A stretch of DNA of 64,000 nucleotides, taken from the NCBI RefSeq assembly GCF_024713975.1, contig NC_091110.1, forward strand, positions 20,093,501 through 20,157,500, given 5' to 3'. Each line of letters starts with the position of its first letter. The stretch's first letter is position 1. Under the pieces are notes generated by a model. The model saw only the letters and a program-made list of their open reading frames with translations. It did not search any database and was not told the DNA's origin. This DNA is from Paralichthys olivaceus. Lineage: Eukaryota; Chordata; Actinopteri; Pleuronectiformes; Paralichthyidae. Positions 8,741 through 60,300 of the stretch are shown here, in pieces. A program made the position numbers and the translations under genes.

Positions 8741-8870
8741 GACATGTTCCTGACATGTTCCTGACATGTTCCTGACATGTTCCTGACATGTGAGAAACAT
8801 GTTCCTGACATGTTCCTGACATGTTAGAAACATGTTCCTGACATGTTCCTGACATGTTCCATCATAGTGC
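8741..8870. repeat. 11-bp minisatellite with p53-half-site-like units
   Basis: About ten copies of ACATGTTCCTG, twice interrupted by GAGAAACATG-type spacers. AAACATGTTC at 8795-8804 and 8828-8837 fits the p53 half-site pattern RRRCWWGYYY exactly. The ordinary units (TGACATGTTC) differ by one base. Confidence 0.85.
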
Positions 8871-32179: not shown

Positions 32180-32570
32180 TATGATATTAATAATAATAAT
32201 AATGTTAACAACACAGACATCACTTTCCATTCTTCTTCTCATTATTATAATATTATTAATAATAATAATTATGATAATAATAATGTTTTATAACAACACA
32301 GACAGCACTTTCCATTCTTCTTCTCATTATTATAATATTAATACTAATAATTATGATAATAATAATGTTAACAACACAGACATCACTTTCCATTCTTCTT
32401 CTCATTATTATAATATTAATAATAATAATAATAATAATGATAATAATATTTTTTTATAACAACACAGACAGCACTTTCCATTCTTCTTCTCATTATTATA
32501 ATATTAATACTAATAATTATGATAATAATAATGTTTTATAACAACACAGACAGCACTTTCCATTCTTCTC
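32180..32570. repeat. ~82-bp AT-rich satellite, 4-5 copies
   Basis: The word ACAACACAGACA followed by CACTTTCCATTCTTCTTCTC recurs at about 32208, 32293, 32371, 32459 and 32541, a spacing of 78-88 bp. The copies are separated by variable-length TAA/TAATAA tracts, which account for the length differences. Confidence 0.9.
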
Positions 32571-33560: not shown

Positions 33561-35512
33561 GTGAATAACATCTGACACCACGTGTGTTCGTTACAACACA
33601 CATGTTCACGTGTCTCGTCATGTCAAGACAACATGTCTGTATTCATGTGTTTAACATGTTTATCAGGTGACACATGTGACAAGGTGTGTGTGTGTGTGTG
33701 TGTGTGTGTGTTCACAGGGGGTGGAGGGAGCCACAGCTGTAGCTCACGCTCTGTCTCTTCCTGCGGACGCTTACGGAAATGACGTAAGTTATGTTTGTAT
33801 TTTTCAGTTTTCCTTTGACTTTTGAACAGTGAATCACACGAGAAGCAGTGAACATCATACATGACGAGTTCAACACGTCATGGATCAAAAGCTGATAGGA
33901 GACTTTCAGACCTGAGCTGAAGCTCTGACGTGTTCCTCACATGTTCCTCACATGTTCTGCAGGTTCTCTGTGTGAGAACTAATGTCTGAGTCAGTGTCTC
34001 TGGACATGTTCTGGATCTCCCCTCGCCTGAATGTCCCCACATGTTCCTGTTGTTGTGAACAAGTCGACAATCTGCTGCTGCACACACACTGACTACACAC
34101 ACTGACTACACAACATGTCTACACAACATGACTACACAACATGTTACACAGTTCATGTGTGAAAACGTCTCATGGTTTCAGTTGAACCTTTACGGTTGTT
34201 CAAATCAGCTTCATGTCCTGAAATTCAAACATTCATAGTTTGAATATTCTCCCAGTTACGTAGATTTCCTCTGCACTTTGTTGAACTTTGTAAAAGAGTC
34301 TAGAACTTTTATTTTGTCTGAATATATCAAACTGTTTCTTTTTTTCAGCCGCGGCTCGAGGCCATGTGGGCGATGAAGGCGTACAACCACGCCGAGGTTT
34401 ACTTCAACGTAAGATCGTCCGTTAACTCGTTCTTCACATTTCTGTTTTTACGTGTGATGAAATGTACAATATGAAGAGAAATGATTTAAAAAGAAAGAGA
34501 AAACTTCTGTCTCTTCTGTCTGCAGCTCATTTCATCAGTGGATCCAAAGTTCCTGAAACTAACTAAACTGGATGAAAGAATCTACTCGTCCTTCAGAGAA
34601 ACGTTCAAAGATCTCGACATTAAACTCCTGAACCCAGACGACCTGAAATCTGACGAAGCCAAAGAGGTCGGTGACACGACAGAGACACGATCAGATCAGA
34701 GAATGAACCCGGAGCTTTTATTGTAGAGTTTAGTTCTGATCATCATTAAATTCATCATTCGACATTTTATTTCTACTCAGTGTTTGTGTTTTGATTATTC
34801 GATTTAAAAATATGAAAAGAAAACAGTCGTAAACATTGTGAGGAAAAAAACAATTTTACAAGAATGAAGTCGTAATGTTGCAAAGATTTAATGGTTAAAG
34901 TGTAAAATACTCAGAAACACACACACACATGAACACAGTCATGGCTGAACGTCTGTGCTCTGTGAAACAGCGTGTCAGTGGTTTATTGTGTGGTCAGTAA
35001 CTCGGTTGTGTCTGTGCAGCGGTGGCGTCCGTTCTGTAACCAGTTTGACGGACTCATCGAGGATTTCAACTACGGGACTCTGCTGCGTCTGGACTGTGAG
35101 AAAGATTACACGGAGGAAAACACCATCTTCGGTAAGTTTCTATCAGAAACTGATGAAGTAGAGACGAGTGACAGCTGAGACTGACTCACGATTGGTCGAG
35201 AGCATGTATGGGCGGGACCTGGACACCACTACTTCATCACTACTGCACAGACTGTAAATGACATCATCACCACAAGATGACATCGTTTGTATCCGAGATC
35301 TTCGAGCTTCATTTCTGCACAAGTGGATTCACATCATCTTCATTTCCTGTCGTTCTTATTCTGATTCCAACCATTGAGACTAAAGTTAATCTGTCCTTGT
35401 GATTCTCCCTCCAGCCACCAGGGCGCAGTTCTTCGCTGTGGAAATCGCCCGGAACAGAGAAGGTTGTAACGACGCCGTGTTCAAGTCGAAATGTGCGAAG
35501 TTGAGTTCCTAA
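33325..35512 (+). CDS. pbdc1: PBDC1 (polysaccharide biosynthesis domain-containing 1)
   Basis: Small conserved eukaryotic cytosolic protein whose biochemical role is poorly known. It carries the PBDC1 domain over nearly its full length. Coding exons: 33325-33354, 33718-33783, 34349-34408, 34526-34666, 35020-35131 and 35415-35512; 168 aa. Diagnostic stretches are VAHALSLPADAYGND, AMKAYNHAEVYF, LISSVDPKFLKLTKLDE, RWRPFCNQFDGLIEDFNYGT and QFFAVEIARNREG. Human PBDC1 is about 65 residues longer, owing to an acidic low-complexity tail that is absent here. AATAAA signals occur at 35722-35727 and 35749-35754. Exons 4-5 and the 3' flank are repeated 7.8 kb downstream, and the 11-bp satellite begins about 100 bp past the last signal. 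Confidence 0.95.
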
Positions 35513-35854
35513 TGAAACGAATCAGATCCAACGAGGAATCGATCCGGTGATCGATCCGTCAAACGGAGGATTCCACTTTTCAATTTAAATTAAAAAAGTT
35601 TTATGAAACGTTGTCATGTGATATTCAGGTTCATACGTGACGTCAGTTCTGTTTCACATGTGTTTTGTATTTACTGTAAAATTATATTGTACCAATTATA
35701 AGTGCTTGTTTTTTATTTCAAAATAAATGTCAGTGCCTGAAAAGGAAAAAATAAAGAATCACGAAGTTCAACAAAGTGTCGCGTCCATCACGTCTGTAAA
35801 CAACAACTTATTACACTCGATGTTTCAGGACACGCTGAGACGTGTGCACGAAGT

Positions 35855-38800
35855 TTCTATCACGTTTTCAGGAAGCTTTTGTGAAGTTTTTGTCAAGTTT
35901 TCATCACATTTCATTAAGATTTCAGGAAGTTTTTGTGAAGATTTCAGGAAGTTTTTGTGAAGTTTTTCCTCAAGTTTTCATCAAGTTTTTGTGACATTTT
36001 CACAAAGTTTTTGTGATGTTCTCCTGAAGTTTGTACCACGTTTTTGTGAAGTTTTCCTGAAAGTTTTTGTCAAGTTTTCATGACGTTTTCGTCAAGTTTT
36101 CATGACGTTTTCATGATATTTTTGTCAAGTTTTCATCAAGTTTTCCTGAAATTTTCCTGAAGTTTTTATCACGTTTTCATGATGTTTTTGTAAAGTTTTC
36201 ATGATGTTTTCATGACATTTTTATTGTAAAATTTTCGTCAAGTTTTCATCAAGTTTTCCTGAAGTTTTCGTCAAGTTTTCATGACGTTTTTGTCAAGTTT
36301 TCATGAAGTTTTCATGATGTTTTTGTTAAGTTTTTGTCAAGTTTTCATGATGTTTTTGTCAAGTTTTCATGATGTTTTTGTTAAGTTGTTGTCAACTTTT
36401 CATGATGTTTTCATCAAGTTTTCCTGAAGTTTTCGTGATGTTTCCATGATATTTTTGTCAAGTTTTTGTCAAGTTTTCATGATGTTTTCATCAAGTTTTT
36501 GTCAAGTTTTCGTGATGTTTTCATCAAGTTGTTGTCAAGTTTTCATGATGTTTTCATCAAGTTTTAATGAAGTTTTTGTCAAGTTTTCCTGAGGTTTTCG
36601 TAAAGTTTTCATGATTTTTTTGTCAAGTTTTCATGATGTTTTCATCAAGTTTTCATGAAGTTTTCGTGACGTTTTTTTCAAGTTTTTGTCAAGTTTTCGT
36701 CAAGTTTTCCTGAAGTTTTCGTCAAGTTTTCATGAAGTTCTTGTCAAGTTTTCATGACGTTTTCATGATGTTTTTGTTAAGTTTTTGTCAAGTTTTCATG
36801 ATGTTTTCATGACGTTTTCATGACGTTTTCCTGAAGATTTCCTGAAGTTTTCGTGATGTTTTTGTCAAGTTTTTGTCAAGTTTTCATGATGTTTTCATCA
36901 AGTTTTTGTCAAGTTTTCATGATGTTTTCATCAAGTTTTCATGACGTTTTCCTGAAGATTTCCTGAAGTTTTCGTCAAGTTTTCATGACGTTTTTGTCAA
37001 GTTTTCATGATGTTTTCATCAAGTTGTTGTCAACTTTTCATGATGTTTTCATCAAGTTTTCCTGAAGTTTTCATGATGTTTCCATGATATTTTTGTCAAG
37101 TTTTTGTCAAGTTTTCATGATGTTTTCATCAAGTTGTTGTCAAGTTTTCATGATGTTTTCATCAAGTTTTAATGAAGTTTTTGTCAAGTTTTCCTGAAGT
37201 TTTCATGATTTTTTTGTCAAGTTTTCATGATGTTTTCATCAAGTTTTTATCACGTTTTCATCAAGTTTTCATGACGTTTTTGTCAAGTTTTCGTCAAGTT
37301 TTTGTCAAGTTTTTGTCAAGTTTTCGTCAAGTTTTCCTGAAGTTTTCGTCAAGTTTTCATGAAGTTCTTGTCAAGTTTTCATGACGTTTTCATGATATTT
37401 TTGTTAAGTTTTTGTCAAGTTTTCATGATGTTTTCATCAAGTTTTCATGATGTTTTCATCAAGTTTTCCTGAAGTTTTCATGAAGTTCTTGTCAAGTTTT
37501 CATGACGTTTTCCTGAAGATTTCCTGAAGTTTTCGTGATGTTTTTGTCAAGTTTTCATGATGTTTTCATCAAGTTTTTGTCAAGTTTTCGTGATGTTTTC
37601 ATCAAGTTTTCATGACGTTTTCCTGAAGATTTCCTGAAGTTTTCGTCAAGTTTTCATGACGTTTTTGTTAAGTTGTTGTCAAGTTTTCATGATGTTTTCA
37701 TCAAGTTTTCCTGAAGTTTTCGTGATGTTTCCATGATATTTTTGTCAAGTTTTTGTCAAGTTTTCATGATGTTTTCATCAAGTTTTTGTCAAGTTTTCGT
37801 GATGTTTTCATCAAGTTTTTATCACGTTTTCATCAAGTTTTCATGAAGTTTTCATGAAGTTCTTGTCAAGTTTTCATGACGTTTTCCTGAAGATTTCCTG
37901 AAGTTTTCGTGATGTTTTTGTCAAGTTTTCATGATGTTTTCATCAAGTTTTTGTCAAGTTTTCGTGATGTTTTCGTCAAGTTTTCATGACGTTTTTGTTA
38001 AGTTGTTGTCAACTTTTCATGATGTTTTCATCAAGTTTTCCTGAAGTTTTCGTGATGTTTTAATGAAGTTGTTGTCAAGTTTTCATGATGTTTTCATCAA
38101 GTTTTAATGAAGTATTTGTCAAGTTTTCCTGAGGTTTTCGTCAAGTTTTCATGATTTTTTTGTCAAGTTTTCATGATGTTTTCATCAAGTTTTTATCACG
38201 TTTTCATCAAGTTTTCATGAAGTTTTCGTGACGTTTTTGTCAATTTTTCGTCAAGTTTTCGTCAAGTTTTCCTGAAGTTTTCGTCAAGTTTTCATGAAGT
38301 TCTTGTCAAGTTTTCATGATGTTTTCATCAAGTTTTCATGATGTTTTCATCAAGTTTTCCTGAAGTTTTCATGAAGTTCTTGTCAAGTTTTCATGACGTT
38401 TTCCTGAAGATTTCCTGAAGTTTTCGTGATGTTTTTGTCAAGTTTTCATGATGTTTTCATCAAGTTTTTGTCAAGTTTTCGTGATGTTTTCGTCAAGTTT
38501 TCATGACGTTTTTGTTAAGTTGTTGTCAACTTTTCATGATGTTTTCATCAAGTTTTCCTGAAGTTTTCGTGATGTTTTAATGAAGTTGTTGTCAAGTTTT
38601 AATGAAGTATTTGTCAAGTTTTCCTGAGGTTTTCGTCAAGTTTTCATGATTTTTTTGTCAAGTTTTCATGATGTTTTCATCAAGTTTTTATCACGTTTTC
38701 ATCAAGTTTTCATGAAGTTTTCGTGACGTTTTTGTCAATTTTTCGTCAAGTTTTTGTCAAGTTTTCGTCAAGTTTTCCTGAAGTTTTCATGAAGTTCTTG

Positions 38801-41800
38801 TCAAGTTTTCATGATGTTTTCATCAAGTTTTCATGATGTTTTCATCAAGTTTTCCTGAAGTTTTCATGAAGTTCTTGTCAAGTTTTCATGACGTTTTCCT
38901 GAAGATTTCCTGAAGTTTTCGTGATGTTTTTGTCAAGTTTTCATGATGTTTTCATCAAGTTTTTGTCAAGTTTTCGTGATGTTTTCATCAAGTTTTCATG
39001 ACGTTTTCCTGAAGATTTCCTGAAGTTTTCGTCAAGTTTTCATGACGTTTTTGTTAAGTTGTTGTCAAGTTTTCATGATGTTTTCATCAAGTTTTCCTGA
39101 AGTTTTCGTGATGTTTCCATGATATTTTTGTCAAGTTTTTGTCAAGTTTTCATGATGTTTTCATCAAGTTTTTGTCAAGTTTTCGTGATGTTTTCATCAA
39201 GTTTTTATCACGTTTTCATCAAGTTTTCATGAAGTTTTCATGAAGTTCTTGTCAAGTTTTCATGACGTTTTCCTGAAGATTTCCTGAAGTTTTCGTGATG
39301 TTTTTGTCAAGTTTTCATGATGTTTTCATCAAGTTTTTGTCAAGTTTTCGTGATGTTTTCGTCAAGTTTTCATGACGTTTTTGTTAAGTTGTTGTCAACT
39401 TTTCATGATGTTTTCATCAAGTTTTCCTGAAGTTTTCGTGATGTTTTAATGAAGTTGTTGTCAAGTTTTCCTGAGGTTTTCGTCAAGTTTTCATGATTTT
39501 TTTGTCAAGTTTTCATGATGTTTTCATCAAGTTTTTATCACGTTTTCATCAAGTTTTCATGAAGTTTTCGTGACGTTTTTGTCAATTTTTCGTCAAGTTT
39601 TTGTCAAGTTTTCGTCAAGTTTTCCTGAAGTTTTCGTCAAGTTTTCATGAAGTTCTTGTCAAGTTTTCATGATGTTTTCATCAAGTTTTCATGATGTTTT
39701 CATCAAGTTTTCCTGAAGTTTTCATGAAGTTCTTGTCAAGTTTTCATGACGTTTTCCTGAAGATTTCCTGAAGTTTTCGTGATGTTTTTGTCAAGTTTTC
39801 ATGATGTTTTCATCAAGTTTTTGTCAAGTTTTCGTGATGTTTTCATCAAGTTTTCATGACGTTTTCCTGAAGATTTCCTGAAGTTTTCGTCAAGTTTTCA
39901 TGACGTTTTTGTTAAGTTGTTGTCAAGTTTTCATGATGTTTTCATCAAGTTTTCCTGAAGTTTTCGTGATGTTTCCATGATATTTTTGTCAAGTTTTTGT
40001 CAAGTTTTCATGATGTTTTCATCAAGTTTTTGTCAAGTTTTCGTGATGTTTTCATCAAGTTTTTATCACGTTTTCATCAAGTTTTCATGAAGTTTTCATG
40101 AAGTTCTTGTCAAGTTTTCATGACGTTTTCCTGAAGATTTCCTGAAGTTTTCGTGATGTTTTTGTCAAGTTTTCATGATGTTTTCATCAAGTTTTTGTCA
40201 AGTTTTCGTGATGTTTTCGTCAAGTTTTCATGACGTTTTTGTTAAGTTGTTGTCAACTTTTCATGATGTTTTCATCAAGTTTTCCTGAAGTTTTCGTGAT
40301 GTTTTAATGAAGTTGTTGTCAAGTTTTCATGATGTTTTCATCAAGTTTTAATGAAGTATTTGTCAAGTTTTCCTGAGGTTTTCGTCAAGTTTTCATGATT
40401 TTTTTGTCAAGTTTTCATGATGTTTTCATCAAGTTTTTATCACGTTTTCATCAAGTTTTCATGAAGTTTTCGTGACTTTTTTGTCAATTTTTCGTCAAGT
40501 TTTTGTCAAGTTTTCGTCAAGTTTTCCTGAAGTTTTCGTCAAGTTTTCATGAAGTTCTTGTCAAGTTTTCATGATGTTTTCATCAAGTTTTCATGATGTT
40601 TTCATCAAGTTTTCCTGAAGTTTTCATGAAGTTCTTGTCAAGTTTTCATGACGTTTTCCTGAAGATTTCCTGAAGTTTTCGTGATGTTTTTGTCAAGTTT
40701 TCATGATGTTTTCATCAAGTTTTTGTCAAGTTTTCGTGATGTTTTCATCAAGTTTTCATGACGTTTTCCTGAAGATTTCCTGAAGTTTTCGTCAAGTTTT
40801 CATGACGTTTTTGTTAAGTTGTTGTCAAGTTTTCATGATGTTTTCATCAAGTTTTCCTGAAGTTTTCGTGATGTTTCCATGATATTTTTGTCAAGTTTTT
40901 GTCAAGTTTTCATGATGTTTTCATCAAGTTTTTGTCAAGTTTTTGTCAAGTTTTCGTGATGTTTTCATCAAGTTTTTATCACGTTTTCATCAAGTTTTCA
41001 TGAAGTTTTCATGAAGTTCTTGTCAAGTTTTCATGACGTTTTCCTGAAGATTTCCTGAAGTTTTCATGATTTTTTTGTCAAGTTTTCATGATGTTTTCAT
41101 CAAGTTTTTATCACGTTTTCATCAAGTTTTCATGAAGTTTTCGTGACGTTTTCGTCAAGTTTTTGTCAAGTTTTTGTCAAGTTTTTGTCAAGTTTTCGTC
41201 AAGTTTTCCTGAAGTTTTCATGAAGTTCTTGTCAAGTTTTCATGACGTTTTCATGACATTTTTATTGTAAAATTTTCGTCAAGTTTTCATCAAGTTTTCA
41301 TCAAGTTTTCATGACATTTTCCTGAAGTTTTCGTCAAGTTTTCATGACGTTTTTGTTAAGTTGTTGTCAACTTTTCATGATGTTTTCATGAAGTTTTCCT
41401 GACGTTTTCGTGATGTTTCCATGATGTTTTTGTCAAGTTTTCATGATGTTTTCTTGATGTTTTCATGATTTTTTCATCAAGTTTTCCTGAAGTTTTCGTC
41501 AAGTTTTCATGATTTTTTTGTCAAGTTTTCATCAAGTTTTTATCACGTTTTCATCAAGTTTTCGTGACGTTTTTGTCAAGTTTTTGTCAAGTTTTCGTCA
41601 AGTTTTCGTCAAGTTTTCATCAAGTTTTCCTGAAGTTTTCGTCAAGTTTTCATGAAGTTCTTGTCAAGTTTTCATGACGTTTTCATGATGTTTTTGTTAA
41701 GTTGTTGTCAACTTTTCATGATGTTTTCATGAAGTTTTCCTGAAGTTTTCGTGATGTTTCCATGATGTTTTTGTCAAGTTCTTGTCAAGTTTTCATGAAG

Positions 41801-42326
41801 TTTTCATCAAGTTTTTGTCAAGTTTTCGTGATGTTTTCATCAAGTTTTCCTGAAGTTTTCGTCAAGTTTTCATGAAGTTCTTGTCAAGTTTTCATGACAT
41901 TTTCCTGAAGATTTCCTGAAGTTTTCGTCAAGTTTTCATGATGTTTTTGTTAAGTTGTTGTCAACTTTTCATGATGTTTTCATCAAGTTTTTGTCAAGTT
42001 TTCGTGATGTTTTCATCAAGTTTTCCTGAAGTTTTCGTCAAGTTTTCATGAAGTTCTTGTCAAGTTTTCATGACATTTTCCTGAAGATTTCCTGAAGTTT
42101 TCATGAAGTTTTTGTTAAGTTGTTGTCAAGTTTTCATGATGTTTTCATCAAGTTTTTGTCAAGTTTTCCTGAAGTTTTCCTGAAGTTTTCGTCAAGTTTT
42201 CATGATTTTTTTGTCAAGTTTTCATGAAGTTTTTGTCAAGTTTTCATCAAGTTTTCGTGACGTTTTCGTGACGTTTTCGTCAAGTTTTTGTCAAGTTTTC
42301 ATGATGTTTTCATGATGTTTTCATGA
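35855..42326 (+). repeat. 11-bp satellite array, forward arm (about 588 units)
   Basis: An almost unbroken 11-bp tandem repeat, typical units TCAAGTTTTCA, TGATGTTTTCA, TGAAGTTTTCG and TGACGTTTTCC. Every unit keeps G followed by T4 in the middle, while positions 2, 4, 10 and 11 vary. Fixed combinations of variants recur at about 0.85-0.9 kb. The word GTTAAGTTGTTGTCAACTTT is seen near 37998, 38513, 39382 and 40233, and CATGATTTTTTTGTCAAG near 38147, 38640, 39491 and 40393. This is a higher-order repeat. Rare 12/13-bp units with TTTTTATTGTAAAA occur near 36220 and 41263. Open frames here, such as 37172-37384, are periodic artefacts (33 bp = 11 codons). Confidence 0.97.
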
Positions 42327-42363
42327 AAAGTTAGTCATTGGTTAATATGTCGTCCAAAATCAC
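42327..42363 (-). repeat. Single reversed monomer of the 38-bp satellite at the array/pbdc1-copy junction
   Basis: The reverse complement reads AGGTGATTTTGGACGACATA and continues TTAACCAATGACTAACTTTT. This matches the variant 38-bp unit found at 44885-44922 and 45188-45225 with a few substitutions. It separates the forward 11-bp array from the duplicated pbdc1 fragment. Confidence 0.75.
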
Positions 42364-43400
42364 CTGAAACTAACTAAACTGGATGAAAGAATCTACTCGT
42401 CCTTCAGAGAAACGTTCAAAGATCTCGACATTAAACTCCTGAACCCAGACGACCTGAAATCTGACGAAGCCAAAGAGGTCGGTGACACGACAGAGACACG
42501 ATCAGATCAGAGAATGAACCCGGAGCTTTTATTGTAGAGTTTAGTTCTGATCATCATTAAATTCATCATTCGACATTTTATTTCTACTCAGTGTTTGTGT
42601 TTTGATTATTCGATTTAAAAATATGAAAAGAAAACAGTCGTAAACATTGTGAGGAAAAAAACAATTTTACAAGAATGAAGTCGTAATATTGCAAAGATTT
42701 AATGGTTAAAGTGTAAAATACTCAGAAACACACACACACACACCTGAACACAGTCATGGCTGAACGTCTGTGCTCTGTGAAACAGCGTGTCAGTGGTTTA
42801 TTGTGTGGTCAGTAACTCGGTTGTGTCTGTGCAGCGGTGGCGTCCGTTCTGTAACCAGTTTGACGGACTCATCGAAGATTTCAACTACGGGACTCTGCTG
42901 CGTCTGGACTGTGAGAAAGATTACACGGAGGAAAACACCATCTTCGGTAAGTTTCTATCAGAAACTGATGAAGTAGAGACGAGTGACAGCTGAGACTGAC
43001 TCACGATTGGTCGAGAGCATGTATGGGCGGGACCTGGACACCACTACTTCATCACTACTGCACAGACTGTAAATGACATCATCACCACAAGATGACATCG
43101 TTTGTATCCGAGATCTTCGAGCTTCATTTCTGAACAAGTGGATTCTTATGAAACGTTGTCATGTGATATTCAGGTTCATACGTGACGTCAGTTCTGTTTC
43201 TGTTTTGTATTTACTGTAAAATTATATTGTACCAATTATAAGTGCTTGTTTTTTATTTCAAAATAAATGTCAGTGCCTGAAAAGGAAAAAATAAAGAATC
43301 ACAAAGTTCAACAAAGTGTCGCGTCCATCACATCTGTAAACAACAACTTATTACACTCGATGTTTCAGGACACGCTGAGACGTGTGCACGAAGTTTCTAT
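42363..43400 (+). pseudogene. Truncated duplicate of pbdc1 (part of exon 4, exon 5, 3' flank)
   Basis: A near-identical copy of 34552-35850 shifted by about 7.81 kb. It begins 26 nt inside exon 4 (42363-42477), so the exon 4 acceptor is missing. Exon 5 is intact at 42835-42946 with one silent change (GAG to GAA). The region matching 35339-35600, including last coding exon 6, is deleted: GTGGATTC joins directly to TTATGAAACG at about 43146. The 3' flank with both AATAAA words is kept, with a 5-nt deletion near 43200. Only a handful of differences were noticed over about 1 kb, so the event is recent or an assembly artefact. It cannot encode a full PBDC1 protein. Confidence 0.93.
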
Positions 43401-43630
43401 CACGTTTTCATGAAGTTTTCGTGACATTTTTCAGGAAGCTTTTGTGAAGTTTTTGTCAAGTTTTCATCACATTTCATTAAGTTTTCATGACGTTTTTGTG
43501 ATGTTCTCCTGAAGTTTGTACCACGTTTTCGTGAAGTTTTCCTGAAAGTTTTTATCACGTTTTTGTCAAGTTTTCATGACGTTTTTCTGAAGATTTCCTG
43601 AAGTTTTCATCAAGTTTCCATGATGTTTTT
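43390..43630 (+). repeat. Short second stretch of the 11-bp satellite
   Basis: It follows the duplicated pbdc1 3' flank exactly as the main array follows the original. It keeps the words AGGAAGCTTTTGTGAAG and CATCACATTTCATTAAG of the array start. It ends in TGATGTTTTTAGGTGATTTC, which runs straight into the 38-bp satellite. Confidence 0.9.
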
Positions 43631-45227
43631 AGGTGATTTCGGAGGACATGCTAACCTATGACTTTTTTATCATATTTTAAACGACATGCTAACCTATGAC
43701 TTTTTTATCATATTTTAAACGACATGCTAACCTATGACTTTTTTATCATATTTTAAACGACATGCTAACCTATGACTTTTTCATCATATTTTAAACGACA
43801 TGCTAACCTATGACTTTTTTATCATATTTCGGACGACATGCTAACCTATGACTTTTTCATCATATTTTAAACGACATGCTAACCTATGACTTTTTCATCA
43901 TATTTCGGACGACATGCTAACCCATGACTTTTTCATCATATTTCGGACGACATGCTAACCTATGACTTTTTTATCATATTTCGGACGACATGCTAACCTA
44001 TGACTTTTTCATCATATTTCGGACGACATGCTAACCTATGACTTTTTCATCATATTTCGGACGACATGCTAACCTATGACTTTTTTATCATATTTTAAAC
44101 GACATGCTAACCTATGACTTTTTCATCATATTTCGGACGACATGCTAACCTATGACTTTTTTATCATATTTTAAACGACATGCTAACCTATGACTTTTTC
44201 ATCATATTTCGGACGACATGCTAACCTATGACTTTTTCATCATATTTTAAACGACATGCTAACCTATGACTTTTTTATCATATTTCGGACGACATGCTAA
44301 CCTATGACTTTTTCATCATATTTCGGACGACATGCTAACCTATGACTTTTTTATCATATTTCGGACGACATGCTAACCTATGACTTTTTTATCATATTTC
44401 GGACGACATGCTAACCTATGACTTTTTCATCATATTTCGGACGACATGCTAACCTATGACTTTTTTATCATATTTCGGACGACATGCTAACCTATGACTT
44501 TTTCATCATATTTCGGACGACATGCTAACCTATGACTTTTTTATCATATTTCGGACGACATGCTAACCTATGACTTTTTCATCATATTTCGGACGACATG
44601 CTAACCTATGACTTTTTTATCATATTTCGGACGACATACTAACCTATGACTTTTTTATCATATTTCGGACGACATGCTAACCTATGACTTTTTCATCATA
44701 TTTCGGACGACATGCTAACCTATGACTTTTTTATCATATTTCGGACGACATACTAACCTATGACTTTTTTATCATATTTCGGACGACATGCTAACCTATG
44801 ACTTTTTCATCATATTTTAAACGACATGCTAACCTATGACTTTTTCATCATATTTTAAACGACATGCTAACCTATGACTTTTTTAGGTGATTTTGGACGA
44901 CATGCTAACCTATGACTTTTTTATCATATTTCGGACGACATGCTAACCTATGACTTTTTCATCATATTTCGGACGACATACTAACCTATGACTTTTTTAT
45001 CATATTTCGGACGACATGCTAACCCATGACTTTTTTAGGTGATTTTGGACGACATGCTAACCTATGACTTTTTCATCATATTTTAAACGACATGCTAACC
45101 TATGACTTTTTTATCATATTTCGGACGACATGCTAACCCATGACTTTTTTATCATATTTCGGACGACATGCTAACCTATGACTTTTTTAGGTGATTTTGG
45201 ACGACATGCTAACCTATGACTTTTAAA
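43631..45227 (+). repeat. 38-bp satellite array (about 42 copies)
   Basis: The unit starts GACATGCTAACCTATGACTT and continues TTTTATCATATTTCGGAC. Period is exactly 38 bp. Three interchangeable endings occur: CATATTTCGGAC, CATATTTTAAAC and AGGTGATTTTGGAC (near 44885, 45036 and 45189). A T/C variant sits at the end of the T run. The mixing of variants indicates ongoing unequal exchange or conversion. There is no coding frame and no spacer structure. Confidence 0.97.
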
Positions 45228-48200
45228 CGTCACAAAAACTTCATGAAAACATCATGAAAACTTCAGGAAAACTTGAAAAAAATGTCATGAAAACGTGATA
45301 AAAACTTGAGGAAAACTTCAGGAAAACTTCAGGAAAACTAGATGAAAACATGATAAAAACATCATGAAAACTTGACAAAAACATCATGAAAACGTCATGA
45401 AAACTTGACAAAATTTTTACAATAAAAACGTCATGAAAACATCAAGAAAACATCATGAAAACGTGATAAAAACGTCATGAAAACTTCACGAAAACTTGAC
45501 GAAAACTTGATGAAAACACGATAAATACATCATGAAAACTTGACAAGAACGTCATGAAAACTTGACGAAAACTTCAGGAAATCTTCAGGAAAACGTCATG
45601 AAAACTTGACAAGAACTTCATGAAAACTTGACAAGAACTTCATGAAAACTTAATGAAAACATCATGAAAACTTGACAAGAACTTCATGAAAACTTCATGG
45701 AAACATCACGAAAACTTCATGAAAACTTCATGAAAACTTGATGAAAACATCATGAAAACTTCAGGAAAACTTGAAAAAATTTCATGAAAACGTGATAAAA
45801 ACGTGATAAAAACTTTAGGATAACGTCAAGAAAACTTGACGAAAACTTGACAAAAATTTTACAATAAAACTGTCATGAAAACTTGACAAAAATTTTACAA
45901 TAAAACTGTCATGAAAACTTGATGAAAACATGATAAAAACATCATGAAAACTTGACAAGAACGTCATGAAAACTTCAGGAAAACTTGACAAAAATGTCAT
46001 GAAAACGTGATAAAAACTTAAGGAAAACTTCAGGAAAACATCATGAAAACTTGATGAAAACTTGATAAAAACTTCAGGAAAACTTGATGAAAACTTGACA
46101 AAAAAGTCATGAAAACATCACGAAAACTTCAGGAAAACTAGATGAAAACGTCATGAAAACTTGACAAAATTTTTACAATAAAAACGTCATGAAAACATCA
46201 TGAAAACGTGATAAAAACGTCATGAAAACTTCACGAAAACTTGATGAAAACACGATAAATACATCATGAAAACTTGACGAAAACTTCAGGAAATCTTCAG
46301 GAAAACGTCATGAAAACTTGATGAAAACGTCATGAAAACTTCATGAAAACTTGACAAGAACGTCATGAAAACTTCATGAAAACTTGACAAGAACGTCATG
46401 AAAACTTGATGAAAACATCATGAAAACTTGACAAAAACTTAACAAAAACATCATGAAAACTTGACAAAAATATCATGAAAACGTCATGAAAACTTGATAA
46501 AAAACGTCATGAAAACTTGATAAAAAACGTCATGAAAACTTGACAAAAACGTCACAAAAACATCATGAAAACTTGACAAAAACGTCCTGAAAACTTGACA
46601 AGAACTTCATGAAAACTTGATAAAAACTTCAGGAAAACTTGATGAAAACTTGACAAAAAAGTCATGAAAACATCACGAAAACTTCAGGAAAACTAGATGA
46701 AAACATCATGAAAACTTGACAAAAACATCATGAAAACGTCATGAAAACTTGACAAAATTTTTACAATAAAAACGTCATGAAAACTTGACGAAAACTTGAT
46801 GAAAACACGATAAATACATCATGAAAACTTGACGAAAACTTCAGGAAATCTTCAGGAAAACGTCATGAAAACTTGACAAGAACGTCATGAAAACTTGACA
46901 AGAACTTCATGAAAACTTGACAAGAACTTCATGAAAACTTGATGAAAACATCATGAAAACTTGACAAGAACTTAACAAAAACATCATGAAAACTTCATGA
47001 AAACTTCATGAAAACTTGACAAGAACGTCATGAAAACTTGACAAGAACTTCATGAAAACTTGATGAAAACATCATGAAAACTTGACAAAAACTTAACAAA
47101 AACATCATGAAAACTTCATGAAAACTTCATGAAAACTTCATGAAAACTTGATAAAAAACGTCATGAAAACTTGACAAAAACGTCACAAAAACATCATGAA
47201 AACTTGACAAAAACGTCATGAAAACTTGACAAGAACTTCATGAAAACTTGACAAGAACTTCATGAAAACTTGATGAAAACATCATGAAAACTTGATGAAA
47301 ACATCATGAAAACTTGACAAGAACTTAACAAAAACATCATGAAAACTTCATGAAAACTTGACAAAAACTTGACGAAAACATCATGAAAACTTGACAAAAA
47401 CTTAACAAAAACATCATGAAAACGTGACAAAAATATCATGAAAACTTGACAAAAATATCATGAAAACTTCATGAAAACTTCATGAAAACTTGATAAAAAA
47501 CGTCATGAAAACATGATAAAAACATCATGAAAACTTGACAAAAATATCATGAAAACTTGATAAGAACTTAACAAAAACATCATGAAAACTTGATGAAAAC
47601 ATCATGAAAACTTGACAAGAACTTCATGAAAACTTGATGAAAACATCATGAAAACTTGACAAGAACTTAACAAAAACATCATGAAAACTTGACAAGAACT
47701 TAACAAAAACATCATGAAAACTTGATGAAAACATCATGAAAACTTGACAAGAACTTAACAAAAACATCATGAAAACTTGATAAGAACTTAACAAAAACAT
47801 CATGAAAACTTGATGAAAACATCATGAAAACTTGACAAGAACTTCATGAAAACTTGATGAAAACATCATGAAAACTTGACAAGAACTTAACAAAAACATC
47901 ATGAAAACTTGACAAGAACTTAACAAAAACATCATGAAAACTTGACAAGAACTTAACAAAAACATCATGAAAACTTCATGAAAACTTGACAAAAACTTGA
48001 CGAAAACATCATGAAAACTTGATAAAAACGTCATGAAAACTTGACGAAAACATCATGAAAACTTGACAAAAACTTAACAAAAACATCATGAAAACTTGAC
48101 AAAAATATCATGAAAACTTGACAAAAATATCATGAAAACTTCATGAAAACTTCATGAAAACTTGATAAAAAACGTCATGAAAACTTGACAAAAACGTCAC

Positions 48201-49028
48201 AAAAACGTCATGAAAACTTGACAAAAACGTCATGAAAACTTGACAAACATTTTACAATAAAAATGTCATGAAAACTTCAGGAAAACTTGATAAAAACGTC
48301 ATGAAAACATCATGAAAACTTCATGAAAACTTGACGAAAACATCATGAAAACTTGACAAAAACATCAGGAAAACGTCATGAAAACTTGACGAAAACTTCA
48401 TGAAAACTTGAAAAAAATGTCATGAAAACATGATAAAAACGTGATAAAAACTTTAGGATAACGTCAAGAAAACTTGACGAAAACTTGACAAAAATTTTAC
48501 AATAAAACTGTCATGAAAACTTGATAAAAACGTCATGAAAACTTGACAAAAACATCAGGAAAACGTCATGAAAACTTGATGAAAACGTCATGAAAACTTG
48601 ACAAGAACTTCATGAAAACTTGACAAGAACTTCATGAAAACTTGATGAAAACATCATGAAAACTTGACAAGAACTTCATGAAAACTTGACAAGAACTTCA
48701 TGAAAACTTGATGAAAACATCATGAAAACTTGACAAGAACTTCATGAAAACTTGATGAAAACATCATGAAAACTTGACAAAAACATCATGAAAACTTGAC
48801 AAAAATATCATGAAAACTTGACAAGAACTTAACAAAAACATCATGAAAACTTCATGAAAACTTGACAAGAACTTGACGAAAACTTCAGGAAATCTTCAGG
48901 AAAACTTGACAAAAATATCATGAAAACTTGACAAGAACTTGACAAAAACATCAGGAAATCTTCAGGAAATCTTCAGGAAAACTTCATGAAAACTTCATGA
49001 AAACGTGACGAAAACGTGACGAAAACTA
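45228..49028 (-). repeat. 11-bp satellite array, reverse arm (about 345 units)
   Basis: The same 11-bp family in opposite orientation (TGAAAACTTGA, TGAAAACATCA, CAAGAACTTCA). The rare words TTTTTACAATAAAA near 45416, 46168, 46758 and 48247 are the reverse complement of the forward arm's TTTTATTGTAAAA. Sub-blocks with AAAACACGATAAATACATCA recur near 45513, 46246 and 46805. It ends at about 49028 in unique sequence. Confidence 0.97.
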
Positions 49029-51899: not shown

Positions 51900-54292
51900 T
51901 CAGCTCATCATGTCGTTGCTGTTGACGCCGTACGTCGAGTTCTTCATGCTGTCGTTCACTTCCCTCCTGAACACCGACAGGTTCTGAGTAAACCTGCGCG
52001 CACACACACACACACACACGACATTAACATCTGCAGTGTTTCCATGGTAACAGATAACCAAAAATGAGTCTTAAAGTATTTCTCATCTCAGCAAACTCAA
52101 AAAATAAAAAGACTCATATCAATAAACCAGACTGTGGAATTTGAAATGAGGTCATGTGACGTACCTGTCTCGATTCTTGGTGAGGAGGTTTCTTTCTATT
52201 CCTTCCATCAAGTTCTCGAAACATAAGTGCATGGCCTGCTGCTTCTCCGGAGGCTGACTGTTGACGATGCTGTTCCTCAGGTCAGCGAAATACTGCAGGA
52301 CACACACACACACACGTTACTACACACACACACACACACACGCACAGACGGATGATGGCGGCGTGTGTGAGGTTGTACCTTCTCGTTGAGCAGGATGAGG
52401 CCTAACAGAGGTCGGGACATGGACCACTGGTTCCGACAGTCCTCGAAGATGATGATGTTCAACACTGTGGACAACATCTGCACAACGAGCACCGGTGTCA
52501 CACACTGAAGCTCCTTCACAATAAAAGCATGTTAATGCGGACTCTGGAGGAGGCGTGCTCTCACCTGTTGGATCATCTCCGGGTGCTGCTGCATGATGTG
52601 GAGGAAGCGATCGTCCGTTGCCATGGGAGCCGGACGCTTCTTTGTGGAGCGCGACAGCTGTTTGAACAAGTAGGTGACGATGTGGTCCAGACTGGAGCAG
52701 CAGCCCGTGCACACCATCGTATCTGAAACACACACACACACGTGTAACACCTGCCGTGACGTGCACACTCATTAAAATAAAGCCGGACCTGCCGGGGTCT
52801 CACCGAGCGCCGTGAGTCCCTCTGATATGGAGGACAGGATGTACATGACGACGTGAGGCTCCAGGCTGGCGATGAAGTTCATGTGGTCCTGCGTCAGCAC
52901 CTCCAGCAGCGAGTAGAACGACTGGCTGAGCTTAGGGTAGTCCTGAGGGGGAGGAGTCAGGAGGAGTCATGTGATTAAAACCTTCTAGAACTTTTCCTGC
53001 AGCCGCCTGGTCCAGAAAATGTCAGCGAGGCGTTTCCTGCCACTAGGGGGCTGGCAGGAAAAGTCTGACAACGTCTGAGCAACTGACTCCACCTCCACGC
53101 TCTCATGTGTTTGTGGCGTGTGTTGATTAAATGTGTCGTTGACATGATGAACATAAACACGGTTGAACATACTAGTAAGTCACTGTGGGGGATGGACAGC
53201 AGTAGTTTGATGAACGTCTGCAGGGCGTTGTCCAGCGCGTCGTCGCCGTACAGACGGAAGACGCCGAAGTTAACGTAGTTTCCGCTGAGCACCGCCTTCA
53301 GCATGGCGAAGCACACGCTGACGCCCTTCAGCTTCACCCCGTACACCTGGTCCTTCGGGACCTCCCCCAACGTCAGGATACGATTTCCTGCGAAAAGACG
53401 ATGGATCAGTTTGTTTTAGTTTATTCTGTAAAAAACGATCTGATGATTTCGGTTGTAAAGATGAAAAATATTTATTATATTTCAAGAGAATATTCAACTG
53501 ATGTTTTATGATATAAATTAATTTTCCACAAAGATTCTCAAACATAAAATGTCAAGTAAACAAACGATGACAGACTGTGACGGTTCATCAAATGAAATAA
53601 TTACTGGTTCTTTTGTCCTGATTCAGTCAGTTTTGTGATGAAAAATATAAAAACCAGAGGGAATAATAATTAATAACACTGTAATAAATGATCATATCAG
53701 AAGAATATATATTTTATACTTTAGAAAACTGAGTGAAATGAAAACTTCACTTTAAATACATTGGATTATTATTTGTTCCAGATTTTTGCAGAAGCATCAG
53801 CCACAAACCTCCAGTGGGGAAAAGGAACAAGTTGTTCCCCAGACACATGAATCATCTTTAAATCAGAGTCACAAAAACACTGAACTGATGAAAACTGAGG
53901 ATTCATTCTTTGATAAATAATAATTAATAATAACGTGTGTGCAGTGAGGACTTTTATTTTGGTGAGCGTACCGTAGGTGGTGATCATCTTGCTGGTTTCT
54001 CTGAACAACAGGATTCCGTTTGGTGACGAGACGTCGAACTGAAGCCGCTGGGATCTAAGACGACAACAGATCAGACGAGTTATTGATCAGTTCTAGACTC
54101 GAGTGACTTCTGATTCTTGTTCAATCATCGTCCAACGACATCTTCTGAGCATCTTCACCTGTTGTGAACGAGTTCGGCCATGAGTTTGAGGACAGGCGTG
54201 GTGCATGCTGGGTCGTGGTACCAGAGCTCGATGGCTCGCTGTAAAATAGGCATGTAGGCTGGATATCTGCAGGTGAGGGTTAAGGACAAGTG

Positions 54293-54347
<55 letters not shown>

Positions 54348-57300
54348 TGAATAATGAACATGTCTCAGCTGTGAGGATACATCCAGTCGAAGAGCATCAT
54401 GAAGCTCGTCTTGGCGTTGAAGGCGAACGCGATGCCTCGCAGGTCTCGAACCAAACCCACCAGCGTCCTCTGCAGGAAACAGAAGAAGACGGTGGTTAGT
54501 GGTTTAGATGAAACCTTCAATCGATTGAGTGTGTGTGTGTGTGTGTGTGTGCGTGCGTGCGTCACCTTAGCTTCCTGCTCATTGAAGGTGTTGGTACTCA
54601 ACATCTGAGCCACAGTTTCAAACGCAGCCGTCAAGGGCAACATGAACTGTTCGAACTGGTCCTCGTCTTCTCCTACAGACACATGCACAACAGTCAACTC
54701 GTGTTTTATCTGGTTGTTTATTCGCTGCAGCTTTAAAAGACTCATCGAGCTTCTAACTGTGACGAGACCTGAGCTCGGACTCGTCGTCACTTTCAAACAC
54801 AACAAGCTGCTGTTTTAAAAGTGACATTATTTGAGTCCAGACGTTGTGAGGAGAGTGAACTGCATTTACCCAGATCCACCATTAGCAGGCGCCCCAGTGC
54901 AGTGTAGAAGGTGGTCCGACACCTCATGTCGCTCAGATTCGACTGGTTGTTCACTCCGAGGAAGGAGAAGTGTTCGCTCTGCCACACACACACACACACA
55001 CACAGTTAATGATGATTACATTCAGAGTGAATGGATGCAGATGTGCTGACTGTGGTGAACTCACCGTGTGGTTGTTCAACATGAACTGAACCGCACTGAG
55101 CTTCACCAGCTTCCTCACGCTGCTGTACGTGCACAGGAGGTCAAGGAGAAAACACAGATCCAGAAACACACGAGAGTCTCCACTCTGACACATAAAACCC
55201 CGAGTGTGATGAAAGTGACACGAACACGAAGCAGCGATGTGATGAAATTCAAGATAAGATACAATAAAAATAAGTCCTGATCTTTCTGCCTGTTCTGGTT
55301 CTTACAGAACCTCATGATGTCATAGTGTAGCTGACCTTTAACCATCAGAACTAACAGCCGATAACGTTGATCCACAGCATTTTTGTGAGAATCAGCGACC
55401 GTCTACAAACAGACTGGAACGACACCGAGGTAAGAAACGCTTCACGACACACTAAAGCTTCGTAACGTTCCAGGTGTGGCTGAAGAGTCTGTTTCAGTGA
55501 AGGATATCCTAGTGAGAGGTCGTTTAGTAGCTGCAATGTCTTGGAGGTGATTGGTTCACACTGGCCCCAGTACTTCAAGTTTGTGATGCTGAAAGACACA
55601 AACACACAAACGGATGTTTTCTGATCAATCGTCAATACTTTATCTGTTTCTGGTCATTTGAAAACGTCTCAGTCTTTATCGGCTGCTGCAGTTTGCTCTG
55701 TTGTCATGGTGACTGTTTATCACATGACCCTGGTGAGGAACCAGAGCCATGTGAGGACGTGCACCAAGTGAAAAGTTAAAAAGAAGAAGATCCTTTTAAT
55801 TATTTTCTATGTAATTTAAAATAAACTTTACTTTAGGTTCGAATTCAAGATGTCTGTCAAACTGAGACGTTATTGAAGCAGAGAACTGACTTGTAATACT
55901 CACATCTTCCCTATAAAGACGCTGAGTACCATCGTCTCGTCGTTCAAACCCAGAACTTCTGATAGTCGTCGATAAAGCTGCAGTGAAAAAACACAAACAT
56001 ATAATAATGTAAAAGGAAGAACATGTATGTGTGTAACATCCCACTGAGCTGTAAAGATGCTGTGAGGTTTCATCACCCGTCATAAATGACAACAGCAACA
56101 GTCAGACACAAGAATTCAATTAAAGACGCCCAATTAAAATGATTCACATCAGAGTAAATCTCAGCGCTCAAAGTTCCAACAACGAATTCCAACCATCAAG
56201 ATGGATGAGGTGGGGATGATTTGAATTCTGAGGAGATCACTTGTACAAACATCGTGTTTTATTCATGTTGAAAACGAGACGAAGCAGACGAGGAGTTTTA
56301 GTGTCAGAGGAACAAAAGCAGAACCTGAGACGACGGATACTTGCTGAGTTACAGCTTCAGTTCCTACAACAGACACCAACTGTCACACTGATCCACCTCC
56401 TCAGCCAATCAGCAGCCACAAACTCTCAGAGTTTTATGTGAAGCTGTTCGGGTGAAACTGTCGACTTCTCAACACGTCCTGGATTTAAAGTGTGATGTCA
56501 CCGAACCAGACGGACACATGTTCAGAACAAAGAGAACAGGAAGTCAGTCAGCGTGAAACCGGACGACTACACCACGTCTGAAAACACAACAGTACAACAC
56601 ACTGAGACTGAGCGACTCTAGAAAAATGCAGCCGCCAGCTCGAGCACACGTCAGCGCTCGGGACAAAAGACGTGGCCCCAAAGTGGCCCCCGTCTGACGG
56701 AGCGGACACGAGGGGTCACTGGGGGCGTGAGGCCAGCTCAGGGTTAATGCAACAGTGAGGCGACAGACGGCGACAGCAGCATCGTGGTGCGGTCAAAGCG
56801 GCGCTCACCTTTGATGATTTCTGCACCTGGTCCCCGATGTAGATCTTCCTGAACTGTTCGAAGAAGCTGAGCATGGCGAGCTCCAGCCTCTCGTTCCCTG
56901 CCTGCGCTAACCGGGAGTCGGTCAGATTCATCAGCTGCAGAACCCTGAGTTCAGAAGAAAGAGAGAGAAATCATGTTGCAGCTCATATTTCTGAATATAG
57001 AAAGATGAACTAAATATTTCAACTGTGAAAATGTTTTAGTTTTTGAGTTATGAAACTTTTTCTGGGGGCGCTACACGTTATCAACACGTTACCAACACGT
57101 TATCAACACGTTATCAACACGTTTGTCCCCACATGTAACAAAGCGTGATGTCATCAGGAGCGTACAACATGATGAGAAGATTCTAAAGGTTCTAAATATT
57201 ATCAACAATCTCGGATTTAAACTCAACAACAACATGAGATTCTCAGATTTCTTACCGGCAGACTAACTCTCCGTCCATGGCGTCCTGCTCGTCTGTACTC

Positions 57301-60300
57301 GCAAACGACACCCGTCCGCCGATCACCGCCCCGATTATATAAACCAACCACGTTAACCGACCTGCACACAGAAGCAGAGGAACCGTTGGTCGGAGGGTTT
57401 CGATCCAAAACACCAGGATTCATTAACGATTGATTCACTGAGGATGAAGCCGCATCAACATCCTGTGTCCAACCTGGTTCACTGTAAAAAAGCTACAAGC
57501 TAATCAGGGAACGAGACGACGGTCACGTGTTTGCAGCACGTACCCTCCTGCACGGTGATGTCAGCGGCGCTGGAGTTGGTGGATTGCAGCAGCTCCTGGT
57601 AGGTCTGCGCCGCCTGGTCGAACAGCTGGACGAGCAGAGCGCACGTCTTCTCATACTCGCACCTCCCGATGGTGGACAACTGGTCCAGCTGCTGTTGGAC
57701 GAGGCCGGCGTCATCGAGAGGATCCTCCAAACCGTCTCTGTGGAGCGAACGCATGTGGACACGAGGGTTAACCAGAGAAAGCGCCACAGAGCTGGTTCTT
57801 TGACATGACGCTGACTGTTACCTGAGGATGACGTGGACCGACTCCAGCCGCGATGTGATGTAGGCCTTGGTGACCTCGGGCGTGTACGTCTCCAGCAGAT
57901 GAGGTTCGGTGGCTTTGACGTAGGGGACCGACGCTGCCAGACGCTGCCATAGACTCAACAGGTAGTGGACACTGTTGGGAGCAAACTCCCAGTGCTGCCA
58001 CACGGACCAACAGGATTTTAATGTCATTCAAAATTATACATTTTATGTTTCTGCACTTTCAGGCCAAGTTAAGTTTGAGCTGCTGATGAATGAGATGAAC
58101 GTTTTCAATCCAACCAGTCTCACCTGCAGACTAGTGACAGTGAAGTTTGCTATGAGTCGAATAACCTCAGGGTAGTTTTCTACTTTGACCAGTTCCCCCA
58201 GCTGGTAGTTACTCTTCAGCCTCGCCAGCAGACGACAGAACTCGTGGTAGTTGTTAGGATCCGGTAAACACTGAAACACAACATGTTCCACAGCGTCACA
58301 CAAAGACTGAAGAAGACAAACCAGAGGAGGAGCGGTGCATGTGACCCAGGTGTGTTCCTCACCTGTGGGTTTGCTAATATCCTCTTTACTCCGTCGACCA
58401 AGTGTGAAAGGAACTTTGCTCGTTCTGCGTTGTTGAAGAGAGAGCGTCTGACGGAGGCGATTTGAACTAGACACGACAACACCTGCACACAGGAAGATTC
58501 ACTGGTTATTCTGGATTAACACGTAAAAAACATCATTTCATCCAAACGTTACTGTGTCACTTACCAACGGAGAGAGGGATGGAGGGATGGAATGATATAA
58601 ATTGAAAAAGAGCTGCAGGGTGGAGGAATCAAGAAACGCTGCAGGAGAGAAAGAAAACAGGAAGTTTTAGTACGAGTTCTGCACATGTTGATACTTCAAC
58701 TTGTGTCAATGACATAAAAACACATGGACTGAGCCTGACGTCACTTATAATCACATATAATAAGATGCTCTCAGGAAAAGCTACCTGATCTCCAGGATGT
58801 GGGGATCTGTACAGTGCAGAGGTCGTCCGACGACTCGTCTGTGGAAGTTCCTATGAAGTCGTAGTTGAGGCAATTGTAGCTGAGTTTGAGCAGCTGCATC
58901 AGCAGACCGTGCTGAGACTCATCGTTCAAGTTCAGGTTCTTTCCAGACGCCTGGTGAAAACACAAAAGCTCAGCTCATCATCGGCTTCGGTCGGCGAGCA
59001 GAGGTTTGCTCCTCTCCCATCAGCAGGAAGCCGATTAAAACATTTCATCATCATCATCTCACTCTGAGCTCATTTCAGAAACTCCATTAAATTGTGATCC
59101 TTTGTTTATTGTGCTCCATCTGTGCGACTGTCACACGTGTCATAAACTGATGTTATCCTCAGCCGGTGGCTGCAGGTCGCCCTCTGTCAACAATTAAGCT
59201 CTGGAAGCTTTTCTGGGGGATTTTAAAAGTGAAAGCAGCTCAGCGTTACGTTGTTTACGTCGGCTGTGAAGTCGTTATTCTGTCGAGGCTTCAACTGAAC
59301 GAAATACTGAGTCTGAATGATCATCACATGAAACCAAGGATTCTGTTCCTGTTATTGAACGAGCATGACACAGCAGATGTGACAAACACACATAAGTTTC
59401 TTGCAAGTGCACATTTGCAATTTGCAGGACAGCAGGAAGAGCCCACAGAGGGAGCTGCGTCTTTTGTTTAGATATTTGTTTGTGTACATGAATTTGTCAT
59501 CATGGAAACACACTCCGTTCTCTCGGAATCGTCTCCGACACAGCGCAACAGATCCGGTGTCACGACGTTGTGATCGCACCTCGTCATGATTTCATTTCAC
59601 TGCCTCTGTCTTGTGAAGCCTCAGAGATGAACGCACCTGTTTGAGGAGGTTACAGGACAGAGTGAAGATGTCGAAGAGGGACGAGTCTCTGAACGATGAC
59701 GCGATCTTCCTGTGTTTAGTCAGAGGATGTGTCGTGTCAGCCTGCGGGGGGGGGGCAGACCACGTTAATGAAAAATCAGGGTTCGGTACATTTTCGTTAG
59801 ATGAACCCCGCCCCCCAAAACAAGAGTACCTGATTGATCTCATTGGTCAGCTGGGACAGAATGGTCACCCCTATGATGCAGTGTTCAACACTGTCCTGTA
59901 AAGACACAGCAACAGCTCAACACAAACGTTCCTGCAGCTTTAGCGTCATGTGGTCGATTCCCGCTCTCACCTGTAGGAAGCGAGTCACATCAGCGATGAC
60001 GTTCCTGAAGACGTAGTCATCTTTCTGACAGTCGAACCAGCCCAGCTTGGTGATTCTGGCGTACAGCTGGATCAGAGCCTGGGTCACAAATGCCGCTAAC
60101 TTCGGCCGCGTGGCCAAATAATTCAGAACATAGTTCCCTGAACGACACAAAAACAGTAACAGCCGCTTAGTGAGGCAGGAACAGCGCACCCTAGTGGTTC
60201 TGCAGCAGATTACCTTGCATGTTATTTCATAAGTAAGCGAGTCTCCATGTTCCGAACTGAACAAACTCTGATCGTGAATAAACCGTGTGCAGTTTGAAGC

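Follow-up and report, generated by a model that had tools for sequence, protein, structure and literature searches.

Minisatellite and satellite arrays evolve by slippage and unequal exchange, and the unit of the alpha-satellite is 171 bp long. Inversions within centromeric alpha-satellite have been compared among primates and, according to the part of that study drawn on here, are far fewer in the marmoset, as in apes, than in the macaque (PMC13041921). Templated insertions, together with small inverted duplications and triplications, arise from replication errors in the yeast and cancer cases covered by the excerpts of two further studies (PMC11724301, PMC13334657).

The locus described here was analyzed within a window of 64,000 nucleotides from Paralichthys olivaceus, the window being the whole stretch of DNA under analysis, to which all positions refer. 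As a tandem-repeat complex it belongs to a known kind, with short units of 11 bp and of 38 bp repeated head to tail over many periods as in a minisatellite array. From left to right, it consists of a forward arm of 11-bp units, one inverted copy of the 38-bp unit, a copy of part of the gene PBDC1, a short stub of the 11-bp array, about 42 copies of the 38-bp unit, and a reverse arm of 11-bp units. A search of the open-licence literature found no paper describing this PBDC1-exportin repeat locus.

Results

The stop codons of two convergent genes lie 16.4 kb apart, and the repeat complex (35864-49027) fills about 80% of the interval. The gene on the left is PBDC1 on the plus strand, whose last three coding exons were recognized from their translations (34526-34666, an exon ending at 35131, and 35414-35512 with the stop codon). 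The joined exons matched the Pfam family PBDC1 (PF04669) with an E-value of 3.1e-57 and 192.4 bits, and this region is the source of the copy found in the centre of the complex. The motif AATAAA at 35750-35755 on the plus strand, about 110 bp 5' of the array, is probably the poly(A) signal of PBDC1. The gene on the right, placed at 51900-61338 on the minus strand by conceptual translation (stop codon 51900-51902), is of exportin type and presumably XPO7-like. One of its five pieces matched the Pfam family IBN_N (E-value 1.5e-6) and the other four had no match, and one exportin-like piece, read with its intron, gave no match at 0.001 among solved structures. No Rfam family reached its gathering score within the window, no open reading frame of at least 100 amino acids was present inside the complex, and no tRNA gene was found by a search run with a bacterial-code setting. 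Elsewhere in the window, a tandem repeat of 82/166 bp (32190-32569) lies upstream of the visible exons of PBDC1, and 0.7 kb of GA/GT-type simple repeats (1907-2609) show a 100-bp higher-order period over part of their length.

Repeat coordinates were taken from Tandem Repeats Finder, which returned 11-bp-based rows at 35860-42327 (forward), 43404-43630 (a short row), and 45225-49027 (reverse). The forward arm (35864-42330, 6.47 kb, plus strand) is made of units such as GTTTTCATCAA and contains recent internal duplications, and the reverse arm (45225-49027, 3.80 kb, minus strand) carries this 11-bp family the other way round. The orientation is strict: counts of the core word AAGTTTT are 315 for the forward arm, 8 for the stub and 0 for the reverse arm, and those of the opposed word AAAACTT are 165 for the reverse arm and 0 for both the forward arm and the stub. 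Likewise, the best local alignment between the arms scores 1672 after reverse complementation and 11 without it. On the plus strand, T makes up 49% of the forward arm and A makes up 50% of the reverse arm.

The irregular word TTTTATTGTAAAA is found at two places in the forward arm (36219 and 41260) and, reversed, at seven places in the reverse arm (45415, 45857, 45893, 46171, 46759, 48250, and 48495). The initial annotation had described two opposed arms of about 6.5 kb forward and 3.8 kb reverse, a rare word common to both (two forward and four reversed places), and, between the arms, some 42 copies of a 38-bp unit with a duplicated gene piece; these features were all recovered, the last two at 43636-45224 and 42353-43403, and the list of reversed places became longer. 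The motif AATAAA, lying within the irregular word, occurs 7 times on the plus strand of the reverse arm and 0 times on its minus strand; in the forward arm, it occurs 0 times on the plus strand and twice on the minus strand.

Three further 11-bp arrays are present in the window, one of them (60803-61178) consisting of 34 copies of ACAGGTGATGG within what looks like an intron of the exportin-type gene, and the others at 8741-8860 and 57073-57123. A kinship of these arrays to the main unit was rejected, as their smallest distances to it are 4, 3, and 4, and a distance of 3 or less was also reached by 524 of 5000 random 11-mers. The occurrence of four unrelated 11-bp arrays within 64 kb is curious.

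The 38-bp array (43636-45224, plus strand) was scored by Tandem Repeats Finder at 41.8 copies with 93% matches. The 41 units that were read from it are each 38 bp long and fall into 10 types, and no clear higher-order period was seen at lags 1-11 (mean differences 1.9-2.56). A derivation of the 38-bp unit from the 11-bp unit looks plausible by eye but was rejected, since equally high scores came from 23 composition shuffles and 12 Markov shuffles out of 100 of each kind, so that the description of the unit as unrelated to the 11-bp array stands.

The initial annotation did not include a lone inverted 38-bp unit that borders the forward arm on its inner side (42333-42365, minus strand; 3 mismatches in 33). 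It is the only match with at most 11 mismatches outside the 38-bp array in the whole window, and it runs into the exon of the PBDC1 copy via a shared CCT. Both arms, read from the outside inwards, lead via CATGATGTTTTCATGA-type units to an inverted copy of the 38-bp unit that starts near AAAAGT and ends with TGTCGTCCAAAATCACCT, and the switch from array to 38-bp sequence occurs at nearly equal phase in both. The AGGTGATTTTGG type precedes only 3 of the 41 unit boundaries inside the 38-bp array. The two mirrored joints differ by an extra TTA and by a different last unit. The mirrored boundary is good, though not conclusive, evidence for a common ancestry of the arms; its length is small, its joints are not identical, and the arms could have it in common for some other reason.

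Exact matches between the arms were in excess of those in 100 shuffles of unit order, with 822 matches of at least 33 bp (shuffle mean 175, maximum 232) and 178 of at least 40 bp (mean 42, maximum 76); the longest match, at 65 bp, was not beyond the same shuffles (mean 58, maximum 75). When 13-mers were called irregular by a regular-unit grammar of our own choice, 354 of 711 distinct 13-mers in the forward arm and 272 of 647 in the reverse arm were irregular, and 69 of these were common to both. Since irregular words are shared and the 38-bp boundary is mirrored on the inner sides, a common ancestry of the two arms is supported, and in orientation, shared irregular words and mirrored boundary the arms resemble copies made by an inverted duplication.

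The order of units does not bear out that resemblance. The best local alignment of the arms reaches 84.9% identity over 3701 columns, and its score of 1672 was equalled by none of the unit shuffles in two runs (0 of 10 and 0 of 30). However, 5 of 10 and 11 of 30 first-order Markov rebuilds scored as well, as did 5 of 30 rotations of the reverse arm, indicating that conserved order between the copies is not detectable against these controls. The best positions of 165-bp windows were also uncorrelated between the arms (23 windows, Spearman 0.11, p 0.60; 39 windows, Spearman 0.19, p 0.24). No 110-bp window was at least 95% identical to any part of the other arm (0 of 68 for reverse in forward, 0 of 116 for forward in reverse; median best identity 0.886 and 0.891), whereas 20 of 68 windows in the reverse arm and 82 of 116 in the forward arm reached that level within their own arm, indicating that each arm has been rewritten on its own. 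Exact internal repeats extend up to 821 bp in the forward arm and 180 bp in the reverse arm. With collinearity gone, the inverted duplication itself is not visible, only its likely traces. The earlier description of the arms as an inverted duplication of one already diversified array thus holds for common ancestry, given the 822 matches, the 69 shared 13-mers and the boundary, and only as an old origin; for a preserved arrangement it fails, with no conserved order and no window at 95% or above.

Without gaps, identity between the arms over their full length is 43% at most, with a median of 33%, so a long perfect hairpin cannot form, and a clean multi-kilobase hairpin from the arms is unlikely. 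Nor is the complex a palindrome with long, nearly perfect arms and a short spacer, in view of the 43% ungapped identity, the 0 of 68 windows at 95%, and a spacer of about 2.9 kb (42331-45224).

The centre of the complex holds a truncated copy of PBDC1 (42353-43403, plus strand), which alignment to its source (34543-35863) shows to contain part of exon 3 in our numbering, exon 4, and the 3' flank. Over 1046 aligned columns, 7 substitutions were found, two of them in the first nine bases and 5 beyond, together with gaps of 1, 4, 5, and 270 bp, and the divergence of the copy from PBDC1 is about 0.5%. The 270-bp gap corresponds to source positions 35331-35600, which hold exactly one coding exon of PBDC1, the last, with its flanks. 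The copy starts partway through an exon, is without the last coding exon, and retains introns, indicating a duplicated rather than a processed pseudogene fragment. At all five substitutions beyond the joint (34877, 35061, 35318, 35763, and 35792) the copy has A, four being G to A and one C to A, numbers too small to judge. Apart from whole-unit gaps, the stub that follows (43404-43630, 0.23 kb, plus strand) keeps collinearity with the forward arm's edge on the PBDC1 side, showing few substitutions and several gaps of about whole units. Among 176 14-mers specific to that edge, 65 recur in the stub and 2 in the reverse arm.

The divergence of the arms was gauged by simulated copies of forward-arm slices, five per setting, in which the forward arm was left unchanged after the split and its own later turnover was thus ignored. 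The fraction of windows at 95% or above was 0.033 (median 0.889) with 8% substitutions and 40 unit gaps, 0.012 (median 0.878) with 12% substitutions and no gaps, and 0.089 (median 0.887) with 5% substitutions and 80 gaps; with 0.5% substitutions, 0.305 to 1.0 of the windows stayed at that level. By this rough modelling, the arms would have split at a divergence of about 8-12%, and the inverted 38-bp copy, with its 3 mismatches in 33, points the same way. Set against about 0.5% for the gene copy, such a divergence implies that the gene copy was added later, unless conversion reset it, and the two levels of divergence indicate that the whole complex did not arise in one event. The apparent difference in age could be spurious if the gene copies were evened by conversion or if arrays diverge unusually fast, and one observation runs counter to it: next to a gene copy that is only about 0.5% diverged, the stub is set apart from the forward arm's edge by whole-unit gaps.

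Discussion

On balance, we lean towards the reading that this is a selectively neutral, intergenic minisatellite complex built stepwise between two convergent genes. The 11-bp array would have grown just past the poly(A) signal of PBDC1 until its far end met the 38-bp sequence, and two mirrored arms would then have come about when the array end was turned round together with its 38-bp boundary, through either an inverted duplication or an inversion. Slippage and unequal exchange would have rewritten each arm separately and erased the shared order. Much later, a piece of PBDC1 (the end of exon 3, exon 4, and the 3' flank) may have been copied into the centre along with the near edge of the array, the copied piece losing its last coding exon to become a pseudogene fragment, and the 38-bp unit would have expanded to about 42 copies. 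The joints may have formed by replication-based template switching via short shared words (CCT at 42365 and a T run, TTTTT, at 43630). What the sequence shows directly are the parts and their orientation, the words and boundary common to the arms, the loss of collinearity, and the two levels of divergence; the order of events and the template switching are inferred, as is neutrality, for which the ground is the absence of evidence for a function.

The chief competing explanation, which we regard as rather unlikely, is that a block extending from exon 3 of PBDC1 across the array as far as the first 38-bp unit was recently duplicated in tandem, and that the array and 38-bp repeats of the second copy were then inverted in place. 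The stub and the reverse arm would then be two parts of a second array, with no separate inverted duplication required. The joint at 42365 is such as a tandem duplication would leave, the 38-bp unit passing straight into exon 3 via the shared CCT, and the retention of PBDC1-side edge words in the stub but not in the reverse arm looks as if an array had been split there. It is mainly on age that this explanation fails: the reverse arm should lie about 0.5% from the forward arm, but none of its 68 windows reaches 95%, unlike the simulated copies at 0.5%. It could hold only with a very rapid turnover of arrays or with conversion of the gene copies. An improbable alternative is that the arms grew separately from a dispersed satellite family of the Paralichthys olivaceus genome whose members already had the shared variants. 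This would account for the lack of order in common and for the separate homogenisation of the arms, but it leaves the mirroring of the 38-bp boundary on both arms unaccounted for, and the other three 11-bp arrays of the window show no relation to the main unit beyond chance.

A shade less probable again is an assembly artefact, either a mis-join within the repeats or an end-to-end joining of two haplotypes of a single locus. A difference of about 0.5% is a level that alleles can show and is that found between the gene copies; the forward arm moreover contains exact internal repeats of up to 821 bp, and the joints fall at repeats. Against this, the second gene copy starts inside an exon, is missing its last exon, and leads into an array with another order of units. 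Each of the outer flanks also occurs only once, and no second copy of the right flank was found. Least probable of all, and no better than a long shot, is a working element, whether the arms fold into hairpins or form a hypothetical two-sided transcription stop whose mirrored orientation has been kept by selection. Both neighbour genes point into the complex, and the sense strand of each enters the T-rich form of the repeat (T 49%, and 50% on the other strand), which would face transcription from either side and stop read-through; a transcript crossing one whole arm would, if this were true, meet poly(A) signals (AATAAA) in the other. However, the arms match poorly without gaps, at 43% at most, and random orientation easily yields such an arrangement.

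The data point to no function for the complex. If the assembly is right, the locus offers a compact, dated example of opposed satellite arms forming and then losing their common order, datable because the central gene fragment provides an independent, younger clock. It also illustrates that shared rare words can outlive collinearity.

Compared with known systems, the complex resembles the minisatellite and satellite arrays treated in the relevant sections of a review (PMC5615363) in its short unit, its most diverged edge units, its local homogenisation, and its higher-order duplications, and differs from the arrays in those sections in having two opposed arms that enclose a gene fragment and another tandem repeat unrelated to their own. 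As with primate alpha-satellite in the portion of the study cited above (PMC13041921), one satellite family occurs in both orientations within one block; the alpha-satellite described there is centromeric and of megabase scale, whereas the present complex has an 11-bp unit, spans 13 kb, and lies between genes, beside one of them. With the replication-error rearrangements in the cited excerpts (PMC11724301, PMC13334657), it has in common that pieces were copied and attached, in one orientation or the other, where short words are shared, and, unlike in those yeast and cancer cases, the mechanism proposed here is read from one static sequence.
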